Assembly: GCA_903927345.1 (NCBI GenBank)
Contig: CAIYMO010000022.1
Coordinates: 1-61,079 of the forward strand
Direction of reading: 5' to 3'
Source of the DNA: an uncultured Armatimonadota bacterium
GTDB lineage: Bacteria; Armatimonadota; Fimbriimonadia; Fimbriimonadales; Fimbriimonadaceae
Length of the DNA stretch: 61,079 nt
A program made the translations under genes and the position numbers. Under the pieces are notes generated by a model. That model did no database searches and was not told the origin of the DNA. It was given only the letters and a program-made list of their open reading frames with translations. Each line of letters opens with the position of its first letter. Position 1 is the first letter of the stretch. Below, piece by piece: positions 8,511-37,537 of this stretch.

Positions 8511-9025
8511 TTCGACACTCCGCTTCGCAATTCACGGATCGTGCGCTCCTCGTCGTAAGCATCTTTGCGGAGCGAGTCGAGCTCCTTTGCTTCCTGGGCA
8601 CGAAACGTCGAAGGCGACTTTTGCCAAGCCTCGTAGTCCGATGGCGACATGATCAGAAACTCTTCTCCGTTCGCGATCATCACGCACTTGTTGGAAATCC
8701 CAATCCAAGCGCGAAAATCGGCAGGAATGAGCAGGCGACCAGCCGTATCCACCTTGGCTTCACGCGCGTTCGACAAGTAAGCCATTCGGTATTTGGATGC
8801 CGAGCGGTTGCCTCGCGAAAACGTCTCGCGAATGATCTGCTCTTCTTCTTCAAAGACCTCTTTCGCATAGACGCGAATGAACTTCTGAATGTCTTGAACG
8901 AGCTTAACTTCGCCAACAAAGGCTTCCTTCAGCTCTTTCGTGAGGAGAACTCGTCCCTTTGCATCAACACTGCAGGGTTCGTTGAGATTGATCGATGAGC
9001 GAGCGGGCGCAGGTTTCTTGCTCAT
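8507..9025 (-). CDS. mraZ: Transcriptional regulator MraZ
   Basis: First gene of the dcw operon: a DNA-binding protein with two SpoVT/AbrB-like repeats that represses its own operon in the species studied. Both repeats are visible: VDAKGRVLLTKELKEAF (about residues 21-37) and VDTAGRLLIPADFRAW (about 91-106). At 172 aa it is longer than common MraZ (about 145-150 aa), with a C-terminal helical tail rich in E, R and K. A strong Shine-Dalgarno (AAGGAG) precedes the ATG. Its predicted binding repeats lie in the promoter at 9179-9206. Confidence 0.93.
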   Translation of the reverse strand: MSKKPAPARSSINLNEPCSVDAKGRVLLTKELKEAFVGEVKLVQDIQKFIRVYAKEVFEEEEQIIRETFSRGNRSASKYRMAYLSNAREAKVDTAGRLLIPADFRAWIGISNKCVMIANGEEFLIMSPSDYEAWQKSPSTFRAQEAKELDSLRKDAYDEERTIRELRSGVSK

Positions 9026-9160
9026 CAGATCTCCTTCTACATCGAGTTTCTTTTGGGGAAGTTGAAGGGTCGCATCGCATCCTGCTCCGCGGCCCTAATT
9101 CTTCAGATTGGCACCCCAGCCTTTCCTGCCCCTTCGCCGATCCTTGGCTTTGGTGTAGAT

Positions 9161-9189
9161 AGTATAGACACTAGCCATCCACTTTGCAA
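9161..9189 (-). promoter_or_regulatory. dcw operon promoter
   Basis: On the minus strand there is a TTGCAA -35 (9184-9189), a 17-bp spacer and a TATACT -10 (9161-9166), giving an expected start near 9154 and a leader of about 130 nt before mraZ. Both hexamers and the spacing are close to the sigma-70 consensus. Confidence 0.7.
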
Positions 9190-9206
9190 CCACTTTTAAC
9201 CACTAT
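9179..9206 (-). promoter_or_regulatory. MraZ operator: three AGTGG repeats
   Basis: Read on the minus strand, three direct repeats, ATAGTGG, AAAGTGG and AAAGTGG, occupy 9200-9206, 9190-9196 and 9179-9185. They are spaced 10 and 11 bp, one helical turn. They straddle the -35 element of the dcw promoter. MraZ is known to bind short tandem GTG-containing repeats of about 10-bp period upstream of its own gene, so these are very likely its operator. Confidence 0.75.
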
Positions 9207-9255
9207 TTTTCAAAAGTTTTTGTTGAGTTATGCAATAAGCCGAAATAGGGGTAAG

Positions 9256-9288
9256 TGTCTACTCTATAAATCTGAATTTATGTAGACA
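9256..9288. repeat. Interrupted palindrome upstream of the dcw promoter
   Basis: TGTCTAC (9256-9262), a 3-nt insert, ATAAAT, a CTGA loop, ATTTAT and GTAGACA (9282-9288) form a 13-bp AT-rich stem with a 3-nt bulge. The core AGTGTCTA also occurs in inverted orientation at 9164-9172, inside the dcw promoter. It has no T-run and looks more like a protein-binding site than a terminator. No regulator can be named. Confidence 0.4.
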
Positions 9289-9340
9289 TATATGCACTAC
9301 TTATGATTTTGAACTTGAAGATGGGCCTCTCGGCTAACGC

Positions 9341-35260: not shown

Positions 35261-36646
35261 ATGTCCCTCGGTCGGCACTACGCGGCAGAGCATTTGCGAA
35301 CGCTTTTGCTTGATGAAGTTCAGCTCAAAGATGAGCAAGGGTTCCCTTCTCTGGGCGACTTCGCCGCTCGCATCAAAGCTGCCGACTTCACAGAATTACA
35401 TGTGATTGAAAGCGAACTCGAGGCTCTGTCCGAGCCTGAATCACTCAAAACGACTGAACCCCTGCACTGGGAAATCCCAACGCCTAAAGACTTCTGGCAG
35501 GATTGGAAGCCCTCTCCAGACGTCCTTGAGGACCGAATCCGGGGTGCCTGGTACGGGCGTATCGCAGGCTGCATTCTCGGAAAGCCCGTTGAGTGTCACG
35601 AGTTTTTCGCACGTCCTCAGTCGCTCCGGGCGTTTCTCGAGGCGACCGACCAATGGCCCCTGACCGACTTCATCAAACTCTGCGATCCCGAGATGGAGCG
35701 GTATGCAGGGCATAGATGTCATTTTAAGCCGTCAACGAAGGGCAACGTTCAATATGCGCAGAGCGATGACGATCTGCGCTACACCCTCGCCGGACTCCGA
35801 ATTCAAGCAAGCAGGATTGACAAGTCCAAACCCGGGATCGTGAGCTACTCTGTCCCCACTAGCCAAGATATCTTCAAATACTGGACGGCCCACTGGCTAC
35901 CAAACCACACCTTTACAGCCGAGCAGGCGACAATCTCAAACTCATACGCGTTTGGCCGCCCCCATGGATGGCTCTACGACGACGCGTCGGAAGAACAGAT
36001 GCTCGCGATGCGTCAATGGAGAAACCCCTACCGAGAATGGATCGGCGCCGCCATACGCGCCGATGGTTGGGCGTTCTCGCACGCCGGTAACCCTTATCAA
36101 GCAGCAATCGTCGCTCAACAAGATGCGCGCCTCACCCACGAGCGCAACGGTGAGTACAGCGAGATCTTCTTTGCCTCCTGGATCGCCGGGGCCTTCCGCT
36201 TTACCCTCGAGGAGTCATTCGAGATCGCGTTGAGCCTGATTCCCTCCGAGTGCCGCCTTGCGGTACTCGCCCGCGAACTTCATACGTTCTGCGCCACCCA
36301 ACCATCGTTCGATGAGTTCCTCGACCTCGTCGCCGCAAGGACGGGCCACTATAACGGTGTTCACGCCATCAACAACGCGGCCGTCTGTATCGGATCAATC
36401 TTTCTGAGTAAGGGCGACTTCGAAAAGGGGATCACAATGGCCGTGATGTGCGGACTTGATACAGATTGCAACGGGGCAACTGTCGGCAGCGTTCTTGGCG
36501 CTCACATTGGCGCTGCCGCAATGCCGACGGAGAAGTGGGTCAAGCCATTTAACGACACCATTGATTTTGAGTACGTGGGCGAGGAGCGCCAATCGATCGA
36601 CGCGCTTGCCGATTGGACGACTCAGCTATGGCTGGACCTCAATTGA
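35261..36646 (+). CDS. ADP-ribosylglycohydrolase-family protein
   Basis: A 461-aa member of the DraG/ARH family, all-alpha di-magnesium hydrolases that remove ADP-ribose from proteins or small molecules. The metal-site motifs are QSDDDLRYT (about residues 166-174) and CGLDTDCNGATVGSVLGA (about 405-422). GAWYGRIAGCILGKPVE is the usual first helix of the fold. An N-terminal extension of about 90 residues precedes it. No ADP-ribosyltransferase is seen nearby, so the substrate is open. Confidence 0.85.
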   Translation: MSLGRHYAAEHLRTLLLDEVQLKDEQGFPSLGDFAARIKAADFTELHVIESELEALSEPESLKTTEPLHWEIPTPKDFWQDWKPSPDVLEDRIRGAWYGRIAGCILGKPVECHEFFARPQSLRAFLEATDQWPLTDFIKLCDPEMERYAGHRCHFKPSTKGNVQYAQSDDDLRYTLAGLRIQASRIDKSKPGIVSYSVPTSQDIFKYWTAHWLPNHTFTAEQATISNSYAFGRPHGWLYDDASEEQMLAMRQWRNPYREWIGAAIRADGWAFSHAGNPYQAAIVAQQDARLTHERNGEYSEIFFASWIAGAFRFTLEESFEIALSLIPSECRLAVLARELHTFCATQPSFDEFLDLVAARTGHYNGVHAINNAAVCIGSIFLSKGDFEKGITMAVMCGLDTDCNGATVGSVLGAHIGAAAMPTEKWVKPFNDTIDFEYVGEERQSIDALADWTTQLWLDLN

Positions 36647-36649
36647 AAG

Positions 36650-36655
36650 TAAACT
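36650..36655 (+). promoter_or_regulatory. -10 box TAAACT ahead of miaA
   Basis: TAAACT, 6 nt (GAACCA), then ATC at 36662. It has the same geometry as the other leaderless genes here and supports 36662 as the miaA start. Confidence 0.5.
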
Positions 36656-36661
36656 GAACCA

Positions 36662-37537
36662 ATCAGCCCGTTCCTACTTACAATCCTTGGTCCAACCGCG
36701 TCTGGAAAATCTTCATTTGCCGAATCCCTCGCCGCAGAACACAACGCGGTCATCATCAACGGAGATGCGTTCCAGATGTACAGAGGAATGGACATCGGCA
36801 CCGCAAAGCCGAGGGACAAAAGCCGCTACGAGCTCCTCGACCTGAAGAACCCCGATGAAGAATTCGGTGTTGGCGAATACGTTCTTCTTGCCGCTGAACG
36901 TCTTCATCATCACTTCAACAACAACCAAAACGTGATACTGTGCGGAGGCACAGGGTTGTATGTCAGAGCTCTCATCGAAGAGTATCAAGACCTCTCCCCT
37001 GCCCCTTCCCCCGAGTTGCGCCGCGAATTAAGCGACCGGCCGCATGAGGAGTTAGTCGAGCAGCTTTGGAATCAGTTCCCCGAGGTCGCCGAGAAAACAG
37101 ACTTAAAGAACCGCATCCGGGTAACACGAGCCTTGGAGCGATGCCTCGCGCCCAAGGAGAGCATCCAGTTCTCTGTGCCAGCCTTCAACAAGAAGAAGAT
37201 CGCATTGATTCCGGATGTCGAAAATACCGAACAAAATATCCAGCATCGAACCTCGGAAATGTTGCAAAATGGCTGGGTAAACGAAGTTAAGAATCTTCTT
37301 AACGACGGCTACCGACCAGGAAACCCCGGATTTCGTGCGATTGGTTACAACACGATTGTTGACTTGCTGTACGGCGATATTGAAGAGGAAGAACTGGTTG
37401 CGACCATCGAAGCGGAGACGAGGAACTATGCCAAGCGACAACGCACGTGGCTTCGTTCTGAGCCCAGCCTAGAGGTTTTCAGCCATCTTTCGGCAGCGCG
37501 TGACGCAACTCAAGCGTGGTTCGAGAGTATGCATTAA
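36662..37537 (+). CDS. miaA: tRNA dimethylallyltransferase with a probable ATC start
   Basis: Adds dimethylallyl to A37 of tRNAs reading UNN codons. The frame holds the whole enzyme: P-loop LTILGPTASGKSSFAE, INGDAFQMYRGMDIGTAKP, CGGTGLYVRALI and C-terminal RNYAKRQRTWLRSEP. The first ATG (36776) would remove the P-loop. Upstream of it the frame is open only from 36653 and has no ATG, GTG or TTG. ATC at 36662 gives the normal N-terminus (SPFLLTILGP) and about 291 aa, and sits 6 nt after TAAACT. A base error for ATG is the alternative. Confidence 0.88.
   Translation: MSPFLLTILGPTASGKSSFAESLAAEHNAVIINGDAFQMYRGMDIGTAKPRDKSRYELLDLKNPDEEFGVGEYVLLAAERLHHHFNNNQNVILCGGTGLYVRALIEEYQDLSPAPSPELRRELSDRPHEELVEQLWNQFPEVAEKTDLKNRIRVTRALERCLAPKESIQFSVPAFNKKKIALIPDVENTEQNIQHRTSEMLQNGWVNEVKNLLNDGYRPGNPGFRAIGYNTIVDLLYGDIEEEELVATIEAETRNYAKRQRTWLRSEPSLEVFSHLSAARDATQAWFESMH

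Follow-up and report, generated by a model that had tools for sequence, protein, structure and literature searches.

The question raised by this locus is where translation of miaA begins, given a reading frame that offers no canonical start codon ahead of the P-loop. In the window, the whole 61,079-nucleotide stretch of DNA analyzed here, the frame is closed on its 5' side by a TAA (36650-36652) that is also the first half of a TAAACT box. Translation from 36653 reads TEP-ISPFLLTILGPTASGKSS..., open to the stop that ends at 37537. The first in-frame canonical start is the ATG at 36776, 38 codons past the ATC at 36662, with no ATG, GTG or TTG earlier, and the P-loop codons lie upstream of this ATG (Table 1). 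Both the open frame and the position of the P-loop had been pointed out in a first-pass annotation made from the DNA letters, and both were borne out.

Table 1. Features around the start of miaA in the window
Feature	Positions	Strand	Remark
ADP-ribosylglycohydrolase gene (PF03747)	35261..36646	+	same frame as miaA; stop TGA at 36644-36646
TAAACT, -10-type box	36650..36655	+	consensus of local leaderless promoters; identical in three species
Spacer GAACCA, 6 nt	36656..36661	+	
ATC, putative miaA start codon and putative transcript start	36662..36664	+	
miaA CDS from the ATC (291 aa and stop)	36662..37537	+	TIGR00174
P-loop GPTASGKS codons	36689..36712	+	
First in-frame ATG of miaA	36776..36778	+	too late for the start; P-loop left out
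hfq, downstream neighbor of miaA	37550..37819	+	

When read from the ATC, the protein scored 177.7 bits against the TIGR00174 equivalog model, above the cut-off of 148.65 for MiaA, and its GPTASGKS corresponds to the N-terminal GPTxSGKS/T P-loop of the family. When read from the ATG at 36776, it scored 135.9 bits, below the cut-off, entered the profile only at position 35, and lacked the P-loop. The first-pass annotation had stated that the ATC gives a normal MiaA N-terminus, and in alignments with solved MiaA structures the match begins at query residue 2-5. Since the genome contains a single IPPT-family gene, miaA is single-copy and the window gene is the cell's MiaA. A start at the ATG was ruled out: the N-terminal sequence upstream of it is conserved and coding, and the shorter protein falls under the MiaA cut-off.

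Conservation and history of the ATC codon

The window genome (G000) belongs to the Fimbriimonas group, and we compared its miaA with those of the two nearest relatives, G018 and the same-genus G015 (JARXAE010000006.1, Fimbriimonas sp. isolate D15.bin.35). Each of these shares 81% protein identity and 74-75% DNA identity with the window's miaA, and DNA identity among the three genes is 73-81%. Both relatives carry TAAACT-N6-ATC and lack canonical starts ahead of the P-loop, and the spacer between box and ATC differs in each species (GAACCA in G000, GTTTCC in G018, and GAGTTC in G015). In G018, an in-frame TTG appears only at codon 18, within the P-loop helix region. The ATC at 36662 is the only near-cognate codon common to the three species before the stretch leading to the P-loop.

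Over the 37 codons from the ATC to the first ATG, the three pairwise comparisons gave 4/3/23, 5/4/18, and 5/3/22 differences at first, second, and third codon positions, and over the first seven codons after the ATC they gave 0/1/5, 0/0/3, and 0/1/3. These third-position-heavy differences indicate that the codons behind the ATC diverge like coding sequence; the whole gene is under purifying selection. Among 396 G000/G018 ortholog pairs, miaA alone had a strong coding-type pattern (1/2/13 over 21 codons) 5' of the earliest canonical start; a case with 0/0/5 over 9 codons ranked second, and two others were weaker. Because the pairs were drawn from 1.22 Mb of the 3.1 Mb of G000 and from 0.76 Mb of G018, a few further genes with non-canonical starts could exist, and infC, found separately, is one of them. 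In miaA, essential coding sequence is preceded by no ATG, GTG, or TTG, and this arrangement is conserved in the relatives. Taken together, the conservation of the ATC in three species, the coding-type divergence behind it, and the absence of canonical starts from every frame in G015 support the ATC as the start codon, and we consider it nearly certain that translation of miaA starts at AUC.

In the MiaA tree, G000, G015, and G018 are monophyletic (100/99) and lie near G009, G001, and G002, all of which have ATG starts. The nearest of these ATG relatives, G009, has TAATCT-N6-ATG, a leaderless-type start one codon longer. Of 42 further relatives, 41 have a canonical start ahead of the P-loop. 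Since the relatives outside the clade are canonical and the nearest one has a leaderless-type ATG, the ATG was probably lost on the stem of the clade. The one exception among the 42, G041 from the same family, provides a second case of a miaA without ATG, GTG, or TTG before the residue adjoining the P-loop, an observation from a single genome.

The order miaA-hfq-dapF is kept in most relatives compared, and the upstream neighbor changes. Among the genomes compared, the ADP-ribosylglycohydrolase gene, itself preceded by TAACCT-N6-ATG, adjoins miaA only in the three-species clade; in the window and G015 it is flanked by infB and miaA, and in G018, where the stretch read did not include infB, it adjoins miaA. 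Other genes occupy this place in G009, G001, G002, and G008. The distance from the end of the ADP-ribosylglycohydrolase gene to the AUC is 9 nt in G015 and G018 and 15 nt in G000, in the same frame in all three species. Its stop is the TAA of the TAAACT box in G015 and G018, and in G000 the gene ends in TGA AAG TAA, two stops close together. The loss of the ATG and the arrival of the new neighbor map to the same branch, which leaves room for re-initiation as a rival explanation.

Leaderless-type promoters and non-canonical starts in the genome

In the sampled part of G000, a TANNNT-type box stands 6 or 7 nt before 127 of the 1030 called gene starts, 87 of them ATG and 40 GTG, with no enrichment of TTG or ATH. 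Members of this class lack a -35 signal and tend to have G just before the box. Such -35-less leaderless-type promoters, with the consensus GG-TAAACT, precede about 12% of the called genes in this genome sample, and no description of them for Armatimonadota was found in the open-access literature searched. TAAACT occurs at about 1.1e-4 per strand-base, and no hexamer is commoner in the 6-9 nt interval ahead of ATG/GTG gene starts (46 cases), which makes its place before the miaA ATC more than a coincidence. The first-pass annotation had placed the ATC 6 nt behind TAAACT by a local leaderless rule. In the three whole genomes, TAAACT-N6-RTG was found 76/66/66 times versus 26/32/20 for the reversed control, an approximately threefold enrichment.

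The miaA box has the consensus TAAACT, the G before it, and the modal spacing in all three species, and no Shine-Dalgarno sequence was found in the 20 nt upstream of the ATC in G000, G015, or G018. It is thus a TANNNT box 6 nt before the start without a Shine-Dalgarno sequence, as in leaderless genes, but with ATC in place of the ATG or GTG at which such genes start. The box, the spacing, and the absent Shine-Dalgarno sequence support a leaderless position for the miaA start and fit the local rule.

We then asked how AUC fares behind such boxes in general. TAAACT-N6-ATH was not enriched in the three whole genomes (17/22/18 versus 35/31/31 for the controls), and the codons at +6 after eight common boxes that open at least 70 codons (n=274) included ATG 40, GTG 29, TTG 4, CTG 6, ATC 9, and ATT 2. 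With no enrichment of ATH behind the box, AUC was ruled out as a general leaderless start, and miaA is an exception in its own genome. Of the 17 TAAACT-N6-ATH sites in the whole of G000, only the one at miaA leads into a long coding frame that lacks canonical starts in the next five codons; of two other long frames, one carries GTG directly after the ATH, and the second has ATG five codons on and lies, in our reading, antisense to a coding strand. A second TAAACT-N6-ATC site common to the three genomes (TAAACTTGGTGAATC) was considered as a sibling of miaA and rejected, as its printed DNA likewise reads as antisense to a coding strand. The strong dependence of leaderless translation on AUG that the first-pass annotation assumed does not hold in this genome, where the leaderless class has about one GTG for every two ATG starts. 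The rule that miaA contradicts is therefore "RUG only" and not "AUG only".

infC was read in 17 of the 20 genus genomes, G001, G005, and G009 being left out. In 15 of the 17, an ATH stands two codons after the frame-closing stop. The codons behind it read (GCN or CCA)-GGN-TTY, and canonical starts are absent ahead of the conserved INGR/INQR/VNER motif. The codon is ATA in most, ATT in G011, and ATC in G000, G015, and G018. The bases before it are GAGGT(G/A)A in 13 genomes, AAGGTGA in G006, and GAGGAGTGA in G007, and infC of G013 and G014 has a different upstream sequence. The clade with the ATC in miaA therefore has an infC with an AUC start and a Shine-Dalgarno sequence (GAGGTGA); that AUC appears at both genes in the same clade may be a coincidence. 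A special initiator tRNA reading AUC was also considered and rejected: the initiator found has the anticodon CAU, the sole tRNA-Ile(GAU) seen has the ends of an ordinary elongator, and no initiator-like tRNA with GAU was present among 30/44 tRNA loci, with about 40% of the genome read.

Two interrupted reading frames were noticed elsewhere in the window genome. On the minus strand of contig C45, at about 8815-9300, a short secreted redox-like ORF (MKKLALILALVVTVASA*EACKPLPTFSLKA) has one in-frame TAG at the end of its signal peptide and may be a pseudogene, an error, or something else. On contig C42, at about 105431, a glycosidase-like ORF has a single in-frame TAA (AIDP*LRVGGPGTAG) and may be a pseudogene or an error.

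Probable leaderless initiation at AUC, rival explanations, and known systems

We hypothesize that miaA is translated by leaderless initiation at AUC behind a -10-only promoter, which is the best explanation and, judged from the sequence features above, a probable one. The TAAACT promoter would fire 6 nt downstream, the transcript would start at the A of the AUC, and the mRNA would thus begin with the start codon itself. The initiator would presumably be fMet-tRNA (anticodon CAU), pairing with AUC through a third-base mismatch and giving the N-terminal peptide (M)SPFLLTILGPTASGK. With this mismatch, weak initiation and sensitivity to IF3 would be expected. Since IF3 inhibits both leaderless translation and re-initiation without a Shine-Dalgarno sequence (PMC2268962), miaA is likely to be IF3-sensitive by either mechanism, as would be predicted from its start codon. 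A low or IF3-tuned output of MiaA may be the point of the AUC start. We offer more tentatively, as a possibility that we do not favor, the fuller proposal of a natural leaderless AUC start in miaA that is kept by selection, with its output set by an IF3 that itself starts at AUC and with i6A modification of tRNA thereby coupled to initiation fidelity. The ingredients are known and the combination is new; in the literature searched, which was open access only, we found neither a miaA described with a non-canonical start nor a leaderless AUC start occurring in nature.

The AUC could instead be used on a dicistronic mRNA, by ribosomes that re-initiate 9-15 nt beyond the end of the ADP-ribosylglycohydrolase gene without a Shine-Dalgarno sequence, with TAAACT idle or serving as an additional promoter. 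The close upstream stop in the same frame in all three species, a neighbor that adjoins miaA only in the clade that lost the ATG, and the inactivity of leaderless AUC in the organisms where it was tested (PMC4633059, PMC4965119) all speak for this explanation, and two of the three species, G015 and G018, need the TAA of the box to end the upstream gene. However, the ACT of the box, which lies beyond the needed TAA, is conserved in three species although the spacer varies, and the miaA box and its spacing match the leaderless class exactly. Re-initiation without a Shine-Dalgarno sequence is moreover inefficient in E. coli and is inhibited by IF3 too (PMC2268962), and we regard this route as the main rival but an unlikely one.

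The other explanations fare worse. A different near-cognate codon could serve as the start, either the second ATC seven codons on or a CTT/CTC, or ribosomes that started further upstream in a different frame could shift into this one; we consider this group very improbable. All three species do have the ATC at codon 8, and many relatives have a Met just before GPTASGK, but the codons ahead of codon 8 differ at third positions and the solved structures align from upstream of it. A start at codon 8 would also remove the strand that, in the MiaA family, comes before the P-loop. Counted from the ATC, the two remaining frames of G015 become open at -20 and -4, and neither offers a canonical start ahead of the site. 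This excludes a frameshifted upstream start in G015, and on this ground the frameshift was ruled out. Readthrough of the upstream stop into a fused ADP-ribosylglycohydrolase-MiaA protein is scarcely credible: the two genes share a frame in all three species and only a single stop separates them in G015 and G018, but two nearby stops (TGA AAG TAA) do so in G000. We give equally little credence to an error of sequencing or assembly, or to a mutation in the strain that disrupted miaA. Although these are draft genomes, the same TAAACT-N6-ATC recurs in three separate genomes at 73-81% DNA identity, with different spacers, in a gene under purifying selection throughout. The first-pass annotation had named an ATG at this place in relatives as the sign of such an error or mutation; the two nearest species have the ATC there and no ATG, which does not refute the AUC start.

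If leaderless initiation at AUC is correct, ribosomes in this lineage are able to initiate at an AUC that forms the 5' end of the mRNA, and a conserved natural case in a single-copy housekeeping gene would break the AUG/GUG rule for leaderless mRNAs drawn from E. coli and mycobacteria. Otherwise, miaA would reveal re-initiation on AUC without a Shine-Dalgarno sequence. In E. coli, AUC has been used as a knock-out of the 5'-terminal AUG (PMC4965119), and in M. smegmatis, when the leaderless codon was fully randomized, only ATG and GTG worked, accounting for all but 547 of 343,242 reads (PMC4633059). The mycobacterial leaderless RTG rule, by which ATG and GTG but not TTG serve at the 5' end, resembles what we see in this genome, and miaA would be an exception to it (PMC4633059). 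Leaderless genes of Deinococcus-Thermus are like miaA in having TANNNT 6-7 nt before the start and no Shine-Dalgarno sequence; GTG is among the corrected starts of that work, and ATC is absent from its main text (PMC12340547).

Outside infC, very few genes are known to have a conserved non-canonical start, and such genes are systematically mis-annotated; miaA would be one more. Non-canonical infC starts and the autoregulation of IF3 are known, with AUU in E. coli and AUC in Streptomyces (PMC5472188). Like these, miaA is a translation-linked gene with a conserved AUC/AUH start (PMC5472188), but infC has a strong Shine-Dalgarno sequence (GAGGTGA here), whereas miaA has none and stands behind a -10 box. 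Another likeness is Streptomyces sigR, a lone non-infC gene with a conserved non-canonical start, GTC, that is repressed by IF3 and was mis-annotated by start finders (PMC5472188). In sigR, the non-canonical start sets a low, IF3-tuned output, which for miaA we only infer; sigR differs in its GTC codon, its AGGAGGTG site, its leadered mRNA, and its experimental proof (PMC5472188), whereas the miaA start is read from sequence.
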